In this document: piece by piece, positions 4,532-10,089 of the stretch
How the letters are laid out: the number at the start of each line of letters is the position of its first letter
How positions within the stretch are numbered: position 1 is the first letter of the stretch
Assembly (NCBI GenBank): GCA_019454625.1
Contig: JACFNY010000041.1
Coordinates: forward strand, 1,324-11,412
Length of the DNA stretch: 10,089 bases
Reading direction: 5' to 3'
Origin: Sphingomonadaceae bacterium
GTDB lineage: Bacteria; Pseudomonadota; Alphaproteobacteria; Sphingomonadales; Sphingomonadaceae
The notes under the pieces: generated by a model
What the model was told of the DNA's origin: nothing
Databases searched by the model: none
What the model saw: the letters and a program-made list of their open reading frames with translations, nothing else
Program-made: the position numbers and the translations under genes

Positions 4532-6232
4532 ATGCTGAAGGCGATTGCAGGGAGCGTGCTTGCCCTTTCGGCGATCGGCGGCGCGGCGGCGGAAGCCCCG
4601 GCGGACACGATCCTGCTGAACGGCGACGTGCGCACCCCGTCCGGCTGGGCGCAGGCGGTCGCGATCCGGGATGGCGTGATCGTCGCGGTCGGCGATGCGA
4701 AGGACGCGGAGGCGTATCGCGGGCCGGCTTCGGTCGTCGTCGATCTGAACGGCGCGGCGGTGCTGCCCGGCCTCCACGACATGCATGTTCACAGCCATTT
4801 CGCGGGGCTCGAGCAGTTCGCGTGCGGCTTCGCCTACGGTGCGAAGCCCGCCGCCATCGCCGCGCGCGTCAAGGAGTGCGTGAAGGCCGCGAAGCCCGGC
4901 GACTGGATCGTCGGTGGCAACTGGGTGGGTGCGGTGTTCAGGAAGGGCGAGCAGACGCGCGCCTTCCTCGACAAGGTCGCGCCGAACAATCCCGTGCTGC
5001 TTTCGGATGAATCGCACCACAGCATCTGGGCGAATTCGAAGGCACTGGAGGTCGCGGGCGTGACGCGCGACACGAAGGACCCGGCGGGCGGCATCATCGA
5101 GCGCGACGCGAAGGGCGATCCCACGGGCGTGTTCCGCGAAACGGCGACGGAGCTTGTCGAGAAGGCCGTGCCCGCGCCGAGCGAGGAGATGAACCGCAGG
5201 GCGCTGACGCTTTCGACGGCGCAGATGCTGTCGTTCGGCATCACCTCCTATACGGAAGCGACGGTGCGCGACAGCAACATGAAGACGATCTCCGATCTTT
5301 CCGGCGAAGGTATCGTCAAGCAGCGCGTGCGCGGGTGCATCGTGTGGACGCCGGGCGATGCCGCGGGCGACCGCCTGATCGAGACGCGCGCCCTCTATGC
5401 GAAGCCGCGCTTCAAGACCGACTGCGTGAAGATCTTCATGGACGGCGTGCCGATCGAGAGCCACACCGCCGCGATGCTCGAACCCTACAAGGGCGTGTCG
5501 AACACCGATCCCGCCAACAAGGGCATATTGCTGATCCCGCAGCCGGTCCTCGACGAGGCGGTCGCGCGGTTCGACCGCATGGGGCTGCACGTGAAGTTCC
5601 ACGCCGTCGGCGACGGCGCGGTGCGCTCGGCGATTTCCGCCGCGGAACATGCGCGCAAGGTGAACGGCTGGGCGGGCTCCGCGCACGACATCGGCCACAC
5701 GACCTTCGCCGATCTCGCCGACATCCCGCGCGTGCGCGACCTGCACCTGACATGGGAGTTCTCGCCCTACATCTGGTATCCGACGCCGATCACCGACACG
5801 GACATCCGCCGCGCGGTGGGCGACGAGATGATGAAGCGGCTGATCCCGATCCGGGAGGCTGTGGCGAGCGGCGCGAACGTCGTCGCGGGGTCGGACTGGT
5901 CGGTGGTGCCGTCGGTCAACCCGTGGCTCGCCATCGAGACGATGGTGACGCGGCAGGCGCCGGGCAGCGGCGGCACGGTGATCGCGCCGGACGAGCGCGT
6001 GACGCTCGACGAGGCGTTCCGCATCTTCACGGAGAATTCGGCGGCGCTGATGGGCACGCGCGACATCGTGGGGGCGATCGAGCCCGGAATGCGCGCCGAC
6101 GTCATCGTCACCGAAAGGAACCCGTGGAAGGTGCCGGTCACCGAAATCCACGCCACGAAGGTCCGCATGACCTTCATCGACGGTGAAAAGGTCTATGATG
6201 CCGCGAACCCGCCGAAGTTGACGGCTGACTGA
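4532..6232 (+). CDS. Secreted metal-dependent amidohydrolase (family 3), paralogue of the gene at 1253
   Basis: 566 residues with a short Sec signal peptide (hydrophobic 3-19, AAA near 20), so periplasmic. Same fold and metal set as the protein at 1253: H85 and H87 in DMHVHSH, K300 in VKIFMDG, H357 in KFHAVGDGAV, H389 in IGHTTF (H385 nearby) and D455 in AGSDWSVVP. Shared blocks ([45 protein letters not shown], the C-terminal tail) show the two came from one ancestor. Differences lie mainly in the segment after HVH (SHFAGLEQFACGF here) and at 159-165 (DESHHSI versus DVSGHSL), where substrate pockets often differ. This suggests divided substrate ranges rather than redundancy. The start is supported by GAGGAGACAGGGG just before the ATG; the gap from the upstream stop is 22 bases. 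The substrate is unknown. Confidence 0.9.
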   Translation: MLKAIAGSVLALSAIGGAAAEAPADTILLNGDVRTPSGWAQAVAIRDGVIVAVGDAKDAEAYRGPASVVVDLNGAAVLPGLHDMHVHSHFAGLEQFACGFAYGAKPAAIAARVKECVKAAKPGDWIVGGNWVGAVFRKGEQTRAFLDKVAPNNPVLLSDESHHSIWANSKALEVAGVTRDTKDPAGGIIERDAKGDPTGVFRETATELVEKAVPAPSEEMNRRALTLSTAQMLSFGITSYTEATVRDSNMKTISDLSGEGIVKQRVRGCIVWTPGDAAGDRLIETRALYAKPRFKTDCVKIFMDGVPIESHTAAMLEPYKGVSNTDPANKGILLIPQPVLDEAVARFDRMGLHVKFHAVGDGAVRSAISAAEHARKVNGWAGSAHDIGHTTFADLADIPRVRDLHLTWEFSPYIWYPTPITDTDIRRAVGDEMMKRLIPIREAVASGANVVAGSDWSVVPSVNPWLAIETMVTRQAPGSGGTVIAPDERVTLDEAFRIFTENSAALMGTRDIVGAIEPGMRADVIVTERNPWKVPVTEIHATKVRMTFIDGEKVYDAANPPKLTAD

Positions 6233-6245
6233 GGAGGACAGGGCC

Positions 6246-7352
6246 ATGCCGCGCACCGGATTCTACACCGACGAACGCACCTTCTGGCACGCGACCGGGA
6301 TGCAGGCGCTGTTCCTGCCCGTCGGCGACTGGGTGCAGCCGCCCGGCGGCACCGCGGGCGCGGACACGCCCGATTCCAAGCGCCGCCTGCTCAACCTCGC
6401 GAACGCCTCCGGCCTCACGCGTAAACTTGTGATGGCTGACTCCGTCCCCGCCACGGTCGAGGACGTCTGCCGCGTCCACCCCCGCGACTACATCGACAAC
6501 TTCAAGAGGGTGAGCGACGCGGGCGGCGGTGATCTCGGCCGGCTCGCACCGTTCAGCAAGGGCGGTTTCGAGATCGCGATGATTTCGTGCGGCCTCGCCA
6601 TTTCCGCCGTCGACGACGTGCTGACCGGCAAGGTCGACAACGCCTACGCGCTCTGCCGCCCCGCGGGGCACCACTGCCTCGCCGACATGCCGATGGGCTT
6701 CTGCCTGCTCGCCAACATCCCGATCGCCATCGAGGCCGCGAAGGCGCGGCATGGCATCTCGCGGGTCGCGGTGGTGGACTGGGACGTGCACCACGGCAAC
6801 GGCACGCAGTCGATCTTCTACGACCGCGCCGACGTGCTGACGATCTCGATCCATCAGGACCGCTGCTTCCCGCCGGGATACAGCGGCACGGAGGATCGCG
6901 GCACGGGCGCGGGGCTCGGCTTCAACCTCAATATCCCGCTTCCCGCCGGCGCAGGGCACGACGCCTACGTCCACGCGTTCGACGCGCTGGTGCTGTCTGC
7001 GCTCGAAAGCTTCCGACCGGAACTCATCATCGTCGCGTGCGGGCTCGATGCGAACAGTGTCGATCCGCTGGCGCGGATGCTGCTGCACAGCGAAAGCTAC
7101 CGCGCGCTGACGCAGAAGATGATGGACGCGGCCGGGCGCCTGTGCGGCGGACGGCTCGCGGTCGTTCACGAGGGCGGCTACGCGGAAGCCTATGTGCCGT
7201 TCTGCGGCCACGCCGTGCTGGAAGTGCTGAGCGGCGAGCGGACGGCGGTCGTCGATCCGGTGCTCGACATGGCGCTCGGCTGGCAGCCGGGGCCGGAGGC
7301 GACGGCGTTCCACCAGCAATGGGTCGAGCGGCTGGCCGCGGCCCTCAAATGA
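6246..7352 (+). CDS. Histone-deacetylase-family amidohydrolase (class II HDAC-like, HDAH type)
   Basis: 368 residues, no signal peptide, so cytoplasmic. The family is zinc-dependent deacylases that remove acyl groups from amines: histone lysine in eukaryotes, acetylpolyamines and other small N-acyl compounds in bacteria. All key residues are visible: the charge-relay pair H142-H143 in RPAGHH; zinc ligands D180 and H182 in DWDVHHGNGTQ; the third zinc ligand D268 in CGLDANSVDPLARM; and the transition-state Tyr 312 in HEGGY. GFCLLAN and SIHQD are further family blocks. The DPLARM and EGGY-x4-PFCG signatures resemble, as I recall, the Bordetella/Alcaligenes HDAH enzyme (strain FB188) more than acetylpolyamine amidohydrolases. 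GGAGGACAGG just before the ATG supports the start. It follows the amidohydrolase by 13 bases and overlaps the next gene by ATGA. A role in deacylating an imported amide is plausible but inferred. Confidence 0.92.
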   Translation: MPRTGFYTDERTFWHATGMQALFLPVGDWVQPPGGTAGADTPDSKRRLLNLANASGLTRKLVMADSVPATVEDVCRVHPRDYIDNFKRVSDAGGGDLGRLAPFSKGGFEIAMISCGLAISAVDDVLTGKVDNAYALCRPAGHHCLADMPMGFCLLANIPIAIEAAKARHGISRVAVVDWDVHHGNGTQSIFYDRADVLTISIHQDRCFPPGYSGTEDRGTGAGLGFNLNIPLPAGAGHDAYVHAFDALVLSALESFRPELIIVACGLDANSVDPLARMLLHSESYRALTQKMMDAAGRLCGGRLAVVHEGGYAEAYVPFCGHAVLEVLSGERTAVVDPVLDMALGWQPGPEATAFHQQWVERLAAALK

Positions 7353-8032
7353 CCGCGCTTCGCGCTGTGACGGCGGCCCTGCTGTTGTCGCTGCCGTCGG
7401 CAGCGCTCGGCAGCGAGTGGCTGATGATGGTGAAGTCCGAGAACGTCGATCCGGTGCGCGAGGCGGAATTCGAGCACTGGTACAACGAAATCGACATTCC
7501 CGATGTGCTCGCCGTGCCGGGATACGAGCGCGCGCGGCGCGGAGCTGCCGTGACGGAGGACGGCGCGCGGCCCTATGTGGCACTCTACACGATCACATCG
7601 TCCGACATGGACAAGACGATCATCGCGATGCTGATGGCGAGCTGGCGCATGGACCAGCTCGGGCGCGGCACCGATCTCATCAAGGTGACGGAGCGCATCT
7701 ACTACCAGCGGGAGGGGAAGGGCACGCGCAGCGCAGATGCGCCGAAGCCGACACATCTCTACCTGCACCGGTCGAAAGGGGTGGCGTCGAAAGAATTGAG
7801 GGCCATCGTGAACGCGGGGCTCGCGGTCGGTGCGACGCCCTACCGGGTCTACAATGTCCTGATGCACGAACCGGTCGCGGTGCCGGATCGGCTTGTCGTG
7901 TTCGAGATTTCAGCCGCGTCGGATGCCGCGGCGAAGGATGCGGTGAAAGCGATCGAGACGCGGACCGGTGTCAGCGGATGCGGGGCCGACTGCGCGGCGC
8001 TCTATCGGGTGATACTCGACGTTTCGGGCTGA
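7349..8032 (+). CDS. Small exported protein, dimeric alpha-beta barrel (EthD/NIPSNAP-like) type
   Basis: 227 residues, starting at the ATG in the ATGA overlap with the deacylase stop. The frame is open further upstream, but only this start gives a signal peptide (hydrophobic 5-20, cleavage near ALG-S). The mature part begins with SEWLMMVKSENVDP, then EFEHWYNEIDIPDVLAVPGY (residues 40-59), a pattern typical of ferredoxin-like dimeric alpha-beta barrel proteins that bind or transform small aromatic or lipid molecules. The protein seems to hold two such halves (about 23-120 and 134-225), the second beginning HLYLHRSKG. Cys211 and Cys215 near the end could form a disulfide in the periplasm. No catalytic role can be assigned; His43, Tyr45 and Asp49 are the residues most worth noting. 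It is last in the plus-strand run, and its 3' end overlaps the convergent cytochrome gene by 31 bases. Confidence 0.8.
   Translation: MTALRAVTAALLLSLPSAALGSEWLMMVKSENVDPVREAEFEHWYNEIDIPDVLAVPGYERARRGAAVTEDGARPYVALYTITSSDMDKTIIAMLMASWRMDQLGRGTDLIKVTERIYYQREGKGTRSADAPKPTHLYLHRSKGVASKELRAIVNAGLAVGATPYRVYNVLMHEPVAVPDRLVVFEISAASDAAAKDAVKAIETRTGVSGCGADCAALYRVILDVSG
8002..8032. other. Convergent 3' overlap of two genes (31 bases)
   Basis: The plus-strand stop TGA (8030-8032) lies beyond the minus-strand stop TAG (8002-8004), so the last ten codons or so of each gene share the same DNA. No terminator hairpin with a T run is seen between the two units, so transcripts from each side probably extend into the other gene. 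Confidence 0.85.
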
Positions 8033-8454
8033 GCGAACTTCGCGACGAGCGCGGCGCGCGTGCCGGTAACGTCGACGAGTCGCTGCGCGCGATAGAGCGC
8101 GACCTCTTCCGCTGTATAAGGTTTGAATCCATCCGCCGTGATGCCGCCCATCTTCGGGAGCAGCCAGTTGAGCAACGCGGCGAGATCGGCGTCGCTGAGC
8201 TTCGAATTCGCCGAACCCGGCACCTGCACGAGGAATTCCCGGCCGCCCTCCACCGCCAGGAAGCGGTGAAGCTCGCCCTTCATCGACGGCACGCTGCCTT
8301 TCTGGCCGCTGCCGTCGGGCAGGTGGCAGCCCTGGCATTCGGTCATGTAGTTGACGTGTGCCGAACGCCCGTTGCGCGCGAGGTTCGGCGCTGTACCGGC
8401 GTGCGCCACCACGGCGGCGGCGCACAGCAGGACGGGAAGGACGGCAAGGCGCAT
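8002..8454 (-). CDS. Periplasmic monohaem cytochrome c, likely electron acceptor of the amine dehydrogenase
   Basis: 150 residues. The frame stays open far upstream, but the ATG at 8454, two bases after the amine dehydrogenase stop, gives a proper Sec signal peptide (hydrophobic 3-17, AHA-G near 19) and a family-sized product. A single haem c site, C40-Q-G-C43-H44, is present. Met58 (VPSMKG) or Met102 (LPKMGG) could be the second iron ligand. The C-terminal part has LSDADLAALLNWLL and PYTAEEVALYR, a pattern I associate with small class I cytochromes. It is far too short, and has one haem too few, for the dihaem enzyme MauG. A small monohaem cytochrome gene (orf-2) directly after the small subunit is described for the Alcaligenes faecalis aau cluster, which fits. 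In methylamine clusters this place is taken by amicyanin (mauC). Transfer of electrons from TTQ to this cytochrome is inference. Confidence 0.88.
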   Translation of the reverse strand: MRLAVLPVLLCAAAVVAHAGTAPNLARNGRSAHVNYMTECQGCHLPDGSGQKGSVPSMKGELHRFLAVEGGREFLVQVPGSANSKLSDADLAALLNWLLPKMGGITADGFKPYTAEEVALYRAQRLVDVTGTRAALVAKFAQPETSSITR

Positions 8455-8456
8455 CC

Positions 8457-8966
8457 CTAGTCGGCAGCGCCGAGCACGACGGCGGTCGAGCAGTTGTAGA
8501 CGACGCCGACCTCGGTGCCGAGGCACCAGTTGATGTCGTTCGAGCCCGCGGGCTGGTGGACAGGCGTGTCGCCTTCGTTGCGGTTGCACATGCAGCGGCC
8601 GCACGCCGACTTGCCGCAGCAGTCGTTGTAGGAGATCACGTAATCCTTGCCGTCCACCGGGTTGCGGCAGGTACCGACCCATGTGATCGGCGACGGCTCG
8701 GTGCCCGGCGGGCACGACGAGGTGCTGCCGCCGCAGCAGGAGCAGAGGAAGCCGTCGATCGCGCAGTAGCGCCAGTAGTCGCACGACTGCGGATCGCCGC
8801 TTTCGCCCGGCTGCTGCGCCGCGTTTGCGCGTGAGACGGGGAGCAGCGGCATGGACGCCGCGGCGATGCCGAAGGCGCTCGCGCGGCCGAAGAAGCTGCG
8901 GCGCGACATGCCGCGCGCGGCCGTGCGGCTCAGCCGCTCCATGATCCTGTCGAGCCTGTGGTTCAT
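8457..8966 (-). CDS. aauA: TTQ amine dehydrogenase small subunit, probably aromatic amine dehydrogenase
   Basis: 169 residues; start ATG at 8966, overlapping the upstream stop by ATGA. With a large beta-propeller subunit it oxidises primary amines to aldehyde plus ammonia in the periplasm, using tryptophan tryptophylquinone built from two of its own Trp residues. These are W96 (ITWVGTC) and W147 (NDINWCLG), 51 apart as in characterised enzymes. D115 (SYNDCCG) matches the catalytic Asp, 19 after the first Trp, and D71 (AIDG) the second conserved Asp, 25 before it. A twin-arginine leader (SRRSFF, 21-26, then a hydrophobic stretch) indicates Tat export. The mature part has 14 Cys, two more (C78, C122) than the 12 of Paracoccus methylamine dehydrogenase. 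The core (GFLCSCCGG, PSPI-W-GTC, DCCGK-ACGRC-C) is, from memory, closer to Alcaligenes faecalis aromatic amine dehydrogenase. Automatic annotation may call it methylamine dehydrogenase light chain (mauA). Confidence 0.93.
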   Translation of the reverse strand: MNHRLDRIMERLSRTAARGMSRRSFFGRASAFGIAAASMPLLPVSRANAAQQPGESGDPQSCDYWRYCAIDGFLCSCCGGSTSSCPPGTEPSPITWVGTCRNPVDGKDYVISYNDCCGKSACGRCMCNRNEGDTPVHQPAGSNDINWCLGTEVGVVYNCSTAVVLGAAD

Positions 8967-9586
8967 TGGGCAGCTCCCGTGCTTGCGCCCGCATCGCGGC
9001 GCGCCATGTAATCCTGGATCGAGGCGATGCCCGTCCGTTCGGCTTCGAACAGGCTCTCGACATGCTCGCGGTTGTTGACGAGGCCCTTGGAGGCGACGCG
9101 TCCGTCCGCGCCGAGCAGTACGGCGTAGGGCAGCTTGCCGACGCCGTGCGCACGGCCGAGATCGGTGGAGAGCACGAACGGATGGTCGCCGAGCTTCTGC
9201 TGCACGATCATCTTCATTTGCGCGGCCTCGTCGCCGTCGCTCGCGAACACGAGGCGCGTGGTGGCGGCGTTCTCGCGTGCGACGGAGAGCAGCACTGGCA
9301 GCATGGACTTGCACATCGGGCAGGTCGGCGAGAGGAAGAACACCAGCGTCGAGCGTCCATCGCCTGCGATGCCGCCGATGCGGACGTCACCGCCGGTAAG
9401 GCTCGGAAGCTCGAATGCGGGTGCCGTCTCGCCGACCTTGGCGCCGCCCGAGAGCGTCAGCGCGCCGACCGGCCCGAGCCGTTCGTGGAGCATCCCGACC
9501 TGACGCAGCAGGCCGACCATCAGCAGCGCGAGTCCGATGATCGCCACCCATTGCAGCGCGAACGCCGCGAGAAAGAACTCGTTCAT
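8963..9586 (-). CDS. mauD: MauD-type membrane-anchored thioredoxin-fold protein for small-subunit folding
   Basis: 207 residues. MauD (AauD in aau clusters) is needed for correct disulfides in the amine dehydrogenase small subunit; in Paracoccus, loss of mauD makes that subunit unstable. One N-terminal membrane helix (about 6-27) anchors a periplasmic domain with the redox motif C89-P-M-C92 in FFLSPTCPMCKSMLP and the usual cis-proline (P153 in GKLPYAVLL). The block VGETAPAFELPSLTGG is typical of the TlpA/MauD group. The length matches the family (about 200). Start ATG overlaps the mauE stop (ATGA), and its stop overlaps the small-subunit start, so E, D and A appear translationally coupled. 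The 14 cysteines of its presumed client fit a disulfide oxidase or isomerase role. Its partner MauE probably supplies the redox equivalents. Confidence 0.93.
   Translation of the reverse strand: MNEFFLAAFALQWVAIIGLALLMVGLLRQVGMLHERLGPVGALTLSGGAKVGETAPAFELPSLTGGDVRIGGIAGDGRSTLVFFLSPTCPMCKSMLPVLLSVARENAATTRLVFASDGDEAAQMKMIVQQKLGDHPFVLSTDLGRAHGVGKLPYAVLLGADGRVASKGLVNNREHVESLFEAERTGIASIQDYMARRDAGASTGAAQ
8974..8978 (-). promoter_or_regulatory. Ribosome binding site of the amine dehydrogenase small subunit
   Basis: On the minus strand GGGAG lies seven bases before the ATG at 8966, inside the end of mauD. It supports this start over longer in-frame extensions, and fits the Tat leader that begins there. 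Confidence 0.6.
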
Positions 9587-10089
9587 CTGACTACCGCCTT
9601 TCCGCGCAGCCTACCTGCGCTGAACTGTCCGAAACCGAGATAAAGAAGCGCGAACGCCGCGACCGCGCCGATGCCCGAAATCCAGTCGATGGGTCCGAAC
9701 GGGCGGGCGCTGACGGGAAGTACGAACACCGCAAAGGCGATGACGCCGAGCGCCACGTTGCGGGCGACGAGTTCCCAGCCGAGCGAAGCGCGCGCCGCAC
9801 CGAAGCTGCAGCCGCAATCAATGTGATCGCGCCCGCGCGCGATGTTGATGCCCATCGCAGCGGCATAGACTAGCAGAAGCGCGGCGATGCCGAGCATGGC
9901 GATCTGACTGCCGAGCGGCACGGCGACAATCGCCGCGGCGCCGAGGGTGAGTTCGGCGACGGCGATCGTCGCGCCCGCCGGACGGACAAGTCCGCCCGGG
10001 AGCAGCCGGTAGTTGCCGAGCGTTTCCGCGAAAGCGGTGAAGTCCCTGAGTTTGCTCGCGCCGCCGACAAGGAACAGGCCGCCAAACAG
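9583..10089 (-). CDS. mauE: MauE-type membrane protein (5' end outside window)
   Basis: 168 residues are visible; the frame is open through the right edge, so the start lies beyond it, probably by few codons since family members are about 180-190 residues. It is an inner-membrane protein of the MauE/DoxX-like family that works with MauD in folding the amine dehydrogenase small subunit. Four hydrophobic stretches can be seen (about 1-11, 40-58, 63-83, 113-125 with a further one at 138-154 of the visible part). The family hallmark is DCGCSFG, with Cys92 and Cys94 of the visible part in a loop after ARGRDHI; this Cys-x-Cys pair probably exchanges electrons with the CPMC site of MauD. KLRDFTAFAETLGNYRLLP in the first third is also typical. 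The stop overlaps the mauD start. The preceding gene should be the dehydrogenase large subunit (aauB/mauB), outside the window. Confidence 0.9.
   Translation of the reverse strand: MFGGLFLVGGASKLRDFTAFAETLGNYRLLPGGLVRPAGATIAVAELTLGAAAIVAVPLGSQIAMLGIAALLLVYAAAMGINIARGRDHIDCGCSFGAARASLGWELVARNVALGVIAFAVFVLPVSARPFGPIDWISGIGAVAAFALLYLGFGQFSAGRLRGKAVVR

Follow-up and report, generated by a model that had tools for sequence, protein, structure and literature searches.

The closest described relatives of the operon considered here are two dehydrogenases with the cofactor tryptophan tryptophylquinone (TTQ), the methylamine dehydrogenase (MADH) of the Paracoccus denitrificans mau cluster and the aromatic amine dehydrogenase (AADH) of the Alcaligenes faecalis aau cluster. 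The latter cluster reportedly consists of aauBEDA followed by orf-2 (a small monohaem cytochrome c), and is said to have neither mauF nor mauG. To our knowledge, the maturation of TTQ in AADH-type enzymes has been an open question ever since that cluster was found without these two genes. In MADH, MauG acts on a mono-hydroxylated tryptophan and must oxidise tryptophan at about 1 V (PMC7876137, PMC6405878). Here we have analysed a stretch of 10,089 nucleotides from a Sphingomonadaceae bacterium (contig JACFNY010000041.1, positions 1,324 to 11,412), referred to below as the window, which ends in a minus-strand operon of this general type. We consider it rather probable that the operon encodes a periplasmic TTQ dehydrogenase of aau-type architecture and of a lineage of its own, in which TTQ would be completed without MauF and MauG, probably with the help of a haem protein resembling cytochrome c552. 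The genes of the operon (E, D and A, B being the large subunit) are as follows:

9583 to 10089 (>10089-9583), minus strand: E, mauE/aauE-like membrane protein (PF07291, 86.4 bits), its 5' part lying past the contig end
8963 to 9586, minus strand: D, mauD/aauD-like thiol-disulfide protein with a CPMC motif (TIGR02661, 200.3 bits against a cut-off of 188.6)
8457 to 8966, minus strand: A, TTQ-bearing small subunit of 169 amino acids with an RR leader recognised by eye (PF02975, 176.4 bits against a cut-off of 25; AADH structure 2agl_D, 164 bits)
8002 to 8454, minus strand: haem c protein with a signal-like N terminus and a c552 fold from which the axial-Met loop is deleted, candidate TTQ maturation factor

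E and D overlap by 4 bp, as do D and A, and a gap of 2 bp separates A from the haem gene. The order E-D-A-monohaem protein, proposed in the initial annotation, is borne out by the profile matches and the coordinates; a scan for promoters and terminators gave no result above chance. The window takes up the right-hand portion of contig C296 (11.4 kb) and stops exactly where the contig does, inside mauE, so that this gene is incomplete and the operon's own large subunit is off the contig. The source genome is fragmented, with 677 contigs and a completeness of 78%; when searched throughout, it yielded one large subunit only, part of a second TTQ cluster on another small contig. The closest named relative is Sphingosinicella microcystinivorans DSM 19791 (L006), with a small subunit 98% identical to that of the window and a full operon in the order TonB receptor, class I cytochrome c of the His/Met type, B, E, D, A, haem protein. 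With P. denitrificans mau the operon shares the B-E-D-A core and the TTQ residues. However, mauF, mauC, mauJ, mauG, mauM and mauN had no match in the examined stretches of the closest relatives (L006-L013), which stand in for the off-contig part of the window; this agrees with the earlier expectation that mauF, mauC and mauG would be missing near mauE.

Its PF02975 match places the small subunit in the TTQ amine dehydrogenase family, and the two TTQ tryptophans and the catalytic aspartate are intact (W at MADH positions 57 and 108, D at position 76). The 14 cysteines and the segments GFLCSCCGG and ACGRC are present as first described, and the default annotation is methylamine dehydrogenase, as had been foreseen, the named relatives among the best 120 reading "methylamine dehydrogenase light chain". 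The MADH model TIGR02659 scored 157.2 bits, below its cut-off of 196.85, and among solved structures AADH matched at 163-164 bits and MADH at 118-151 bits (identity 58.6% to AADH and 48.6% to MauA). Residues were counted in 455 aligned rows, with the PDB-derived fragment P0196 excluded and 119 of the 120 MauA-query rows used. Directly before the second TTQ tryptophan (MADH position 107) the window has Asn, where MADH has Ile or Val. This residue is Asn in 102 and Asp in 18 of the 120 nearest window-like proteins, and Asn in all 120 AauA-like rows, whereas MauA-like rows have Ile or Val there in 74 of the 75 closer and 40 of the 44 more distant cases. Ile107 of MADH is part of the substrate channel, and Asn at this place favours a substrate larger than methylamine. 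Asp before the second tryptophan is also found in two Novosphingobium plasmid copies (L086 and L087), a natural variant adjoining the cofactor. At MADH position 122, which we take to correspond to AADH Thr172, Ser occupies 119 of the 120 window-like rows and Thr all 120 AauA-like rows. The 14 cysteines had been offered as a sign of aau as against mau, and as a marker they had to be given up: P. denitrificans MauA has 12, and the two extra ones occur in 45 and 46 of the 75 closer and in 42 and 42 of the 44 more distant MauA-like rows, a pattern thus common in MauA-like proteins too.

Small-subunit trees were built from 100, 42 and 75 hand-chosen rows, the third with loci added from the sample of the order described below, and a large-subunit tree from 54 of 95 rows. 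In the 42-row tree the MauA rows formed one group (support 99/97) and the AauA rows, including A. faecalis, another (support 99/97), with the window outside both; the wider, less resolved trees were concordant. A topology forcing AauA and the sphingomonad rows into an exclusive clade was 30.9 log units worse and was rejected (p 0.001). The small subunit of the window thus belongs to a third lineage, which the split from MauA places together with AauA. With AauB and MauB the large subunit of S. microcystinivorans shares 31.2% and 31.4% identity, respectively; its best PDB matches are AADH (160 bits) and MADH (148 bits), and it sits inside a separate sphingomonad clade of the 54-row tree (support 99). 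The likeness to A. faecalis aau thus comprises the B-E-D-A order followed by a gene for a small monohaem protein, Asn107, the 14 cysteines and the closest solved small subunit, whereas the small-subunit lineage, Ser for Thr at 122, a large subunit (in the nearest relative) only 31% identical, and the TonB receptor and class I cytochrome genes that precede the operon in relatives set the two apart. Of the initial claim that the cluster is aau and not mau, the second half stood, on the tree, TIGR02659, Asn107 and the lack of mauF, mauC and mauG in relatives, while the small subunit did not join the AauA group. "AADH-like, own lineage" is the finest assignment that the sequence supports, and aromatic substrates are possible.

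The haem protein has the fold of Thermus thermophilus c552 and one CxxCH haem motif (CQGCH). In comparison to c552 (1c52) it is without residues 50-69, including Met69, which we take to be the axial haem ligand, and has a short PG turn instead; the alignment column of Met69 is a gap in the loop-deleted rows shown. A set of 105 homologues was chosen by score (>45 bits, with the window's haem protein as best query). Apart from the haem motif itself, there is no position at which a Met, His, Lys or Cys is shared by 40% of rows. For alignments A1 and A2 only rows with a VPG turn were used, so that conservation at this turn is by choice. Against Pfam at E 0.001 the protein matched Cytochrom_C only, with no MauG-family match. 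The earlier description as a monohaem cytochrome therefore holds for the single motif, not for the axial-Met loop of its c552 relatives, and plasmid records annotate the protein as "cytochrome c" or "hypothetical protein". The likeness to MauG is one of proposed role only, since the protein has one haem motif, not two, and no CCP_MauG domain. A haem without its axial Met could bind peroxide or oxygen, and oxidation of tryptophan at about 1 V would suit such an open haem; that step may fall to the loop-deleted protein. That it replaces MauG in making TTQ is an unproven proposal.

The linkage of this gene to TTQ genes was followed in several sets. Among 80 genome loci the loop-deleted protein lies downstream of the small subunit and on the same strand in 73, with its haem motif 80-758 bp past the stop codon, and it is present in 13 loci in which neither E nor D was found at the sensitivity used. 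In evenly sampled Sphingomonadales loci it was found in 25 of 25, at 95-750 bp (21 by the first VPG pattern and four, with LPN for VPG and the same deletion, read by eye). Plasmid loci had it in all nine non-mau and in none of four mau clusters. A search of 72,556 plasmid records gave 13 haem-protein matches (E 0.001), all within the 30 records with a TTQ small subunit and 102-870 bp from it; no match was found in the 15 mau-annotated records, and the unmatched non-mau records are Paracoccus SMMA_5 and SMMA_5_TC, the latter, which was the one examined, with a more distant copy. The four MauG clusters make up one clade (98) within the MauA half of the small-subunit tree, while loop-deleted partners occur to either side of the division between MauA and AauA. 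Most simply, TTQ enzymes would have had the loop-deleted protein as a dedicated partner from early on, with MauG taking its place in one branch.

The distribution of MauF and MauG was also assessed at the level of genomes. P. denitrificans MauF as a query had no match at E 0.001 in any of ten sphingomonad genomes, the control plasmid recovering itself. PF03150 (the MauG family) was not found in six of the ten, including S. microcystinivorans, which carries two TTQ small subunits. With MauG as a query there was no match at E<=1 in three (G001, G005, G008), weak short matches (E 0.002-0.2) appeared in three (G003, G004, G009) and clear homologues in four (G000, G002, G006, G007). In an even sample of 196 Sphingomonadales genomes, 23 had a TTQ small subunit, and PF03150 was undetected in 13 of these 23 (10 of the 18 near-complete ones). 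We have rejected the idea that TTQ genomes avoid MauG, as PF03150 is not depleted (found in 10 of the 23 genomes with a TTQ small subunit and in 41 of the 173 without; Fisher p 0.073). In the ten TTQ genomes that have it, it is on another contig (seven, distance indeterminable) or on the same contig at least about 108 kb away (three: G015, G020, G024). PF03150 is dispensable and mostly unlinked to the TTQ genes.

On the opposite strand, the part of the window next to the operon contains the following genes:

7349 to 8032, plus strand: protein without assigned function, with a signal-like N terminus, kept in sphingomonad clusters L006-L010
6246 to 7352, plus strand: HDAC-fold amidase near DmhA and PrpH (PF00850, 262.6 bits; 9gkw, 751 bits; 9gku, 625 bits), proposed amine supplier
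4532 to 6232, plus strand: Amidohydro_3 enzyme with a signal-like N terminus (PF07969, 297 bits), cluster-associated in L006-L010

The first is convergent with the haem gene, overlaps it by 31 bp, and matched neither Pfam nor NCBIfam at E 0.001. For the amidase, 1.2 kb from the small subunit, the closest solved relatives are two cluster 1b bacterial deacylases, the dimethoate hydrolase DmhA (751 bits) and the propanil hydrolase PrpH (625 bits), the matches covering residues 1-367 of 368. Dimethoate yields methylamine under the action of DmhA, whereas PrpH releases 3,4-dichloroaniline; the accessible part of the paper describing them also reports octanoic acid in the DmhA crystal and, in contrast to the situation here, mentions no linkage of either enzyme to a TTQ dehydrogenase (PMC11532494). 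All nine genomes with a window-type cluster, which have one to four PF00850 genes each, carry one of them no more than 10 kb from the small subunit. The distance is 1.2-1.4 kb in six genomes with a common arrangement, and 3.2, 5.5 and 9.8 kb in the three others. In G009, which has the other cluster type only, there was no PF00850 gene on the contig with the cluster. A route from amide to amine to aldehyde is plausible. Between 1253 and 6232 of the window, two Amidohydro_3 enzymes flank a fusion of metallo-beta-lactamase and HD domains and adjoin a TonB receptor; by eye these enzymes have signal-like N termini, and a periplasmic amide-degrading island is possible.

In the model that we favour, the operon (B-E-D-A and the haem protein) would produce a periplasmic TTQ amine dehydrogenase that is neither MADH nor AADH proper. 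E and D would export and fold its disulfide-rich small subunit, and TTQ would be completed without MauF and MauG, probably aided by the adjacent c552-like haem protein. The enzyme would then oxidise a primary amine larger than methylamine, possibly released by the DmhA-like amidase, and the electrons would pass to a separate cytochrome c. Several observations weigh against this model. Position 107 is an imperfect divider (Asn 61, Leu 24, Ile 4, Asp 3 and gap 1 in the 93 small subunits of the first loci), and L138 and L142 have Ile there yet group on the window's side of the wider tree. A topology joining MauA and the sphingomonad rows, 8.6 log units worse, is not rejected at 0.05 (p 0.079). 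The window's own genome holds one PF03150 protein, on another contig, and for this reason independence from MauG is argued from relatives. In one locus of the 80 (L025, 4140-5676), in which E and D were both undetected, the loop-deleted haem gene adjoins a strong MauG homologue on the opposite strand (368 bits). Seven gammaproteobacterial loci of the 80 (L033, L037, L050, L062, L063, L065, L066) have A and B and no loop-deleted haem protein. As the structure model of the haem protein contains no haem, the iron could take an unforeseen ligand or one from the dehydrogenase. Finally, the amidase has no visible leader whereas the dehydrogenase is periplasmic, which leaves the feed line between the two loose.

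The enzyme might instead be a true AADH acting on phenethylamine, tyramine or tryptamine, with the haem protein as its electron carrier, the default interpretation for a small monohaem cytochrome such as orf-2 of A. faecalis. Among solved structures AADH is indeed the best match to the small subunit (58.6% identity against 48.6% to MauA), Asn107 is shared with all the AauA-like rows, and the Novosphingobium aromaticivorans copy adjoins catechol and beta-ketoadipate genes. However, we regard this as rather unlikely, given that the small subunit stands outside the AauA group, that Ser at 122 in 119 of 120 window-like rows faces Thr in 120 of 120 AauA-like ones, and that the large subunit of the nearest relative is equidistant from AauB and MauB. 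Still less probable, in our view quite improbable, is that the enzyme acts in practice as a methylamine (small amine) dehydrogenase, from another lineage and fed with methylamine freed from N-methyl amides by the DmhA-like amidase. The HDAC-family gene at up to 10 kb in nine of nine window-type genomes would fit such an enzyme, six of these genomes sharing one synteny block; Asn107 in place of Ile or Val and the TIGR02659 score under its cut-off do not. Moreover, the product of PrpH, which belongs to this amidase family too, is 3,4-dichloroaniline, so the family points to no single amine.

The haem protein could alternatively be a dedicated electron acceptor in which water or a dehydrogenase residue serves as ligand of the open iron, a reading that we take seriously while leaning somewhat away from it. 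The gene is directly downstream in the same orientation, and no second cytochrome (pCyt1 or upstream type) was found in 64 of the 80 loci. Nevertheless, a separate cytochrome of one of these types is present in eight of nine non-mau plasmid loci and in 13 of 25 loci of the order sample, where stretches extend about 1.5 kb on either side and farther cytochromes are therefore missed. All nine aligned pCyt1-type rows keep their axial Met, so that a second carrier would be redundant, and the four mau loci with MauG are without the loop-deleted protein. The AADH of A. faecalis uses azurin, and a local carrier is therefore not needed either way. A cupredoxin (amicyanin or azurin) as the evident acceptor was considered and discarded, PF00127 being found in four of ten genomes and not in the window's own (78% complete). 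A role of the haem protein in completing TTQ remains the reading that we prefer.

Other TTQ clusters provide some additional observations. The second cluster of the window's genome (L112, contig C527, 2925-7558) has B-E-D, with A past the contig end, and its counterpart in S. microcystinivorans (L114) continues with A, two cytochromes, a TonB receptor and an aldehyde dehydrogenase. A dihaem protein gene lies on C527 upstream of this second cluster, 0.8 kb from its large subunit; the examined surroundings of the corresponding S. microcystinivorans cluster contain no counterpart of this gene. Six loci (L022, L024, L029, L030, L034, L039) have a tandem B-A-B-E-D-A arrangement with two small and two large subunits, the first copy being cut in L029. 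On plasmid pNL2 of N. aromaticivorans (L087) the cluster is located between an amidase/Rieske dioxygenase group and the catechol/beta-ketoadipate genes, a hint of an aromatic amine route, and the haem protein there (SARO_RS19985) is annotated "hypothetical protein". Apart from L033, where a weak match to D persists, the haem-less loci show neither E nor D; these six form one clade, and their next downstream gene resembles, by eye, a Rieske-type ring hydroxylase. Mutual exclusion of MauG and the loop-deleted protein was rejected on account of L025, where both stand side by side; this locus may be a natural test case for separate roles of the two. A search of phage records for the TTQ small subunit gave no match.

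A search of the literature, with most subscription journals outside its reach, found nothing on MauG-free TTQ biogenesis or on the loop-deleted haem protein. Automatic annotation masks both the type of enzyme, under the name "methylamine dehydrogenase", and the odd haem protein next to it. With the present data, the question of TTQ maturation in AADH-type enzymes is narrowed to one small gene. We suggest, tentatively and as something that may well turn out otherwise, that in a large non-mau group, probably including the AADH of A. faecalis, TTQ would be completed by the loop-deleted monohaem protein and not by MauG, in which case the MauG-type pathway would be a derived, minority solution within the family.

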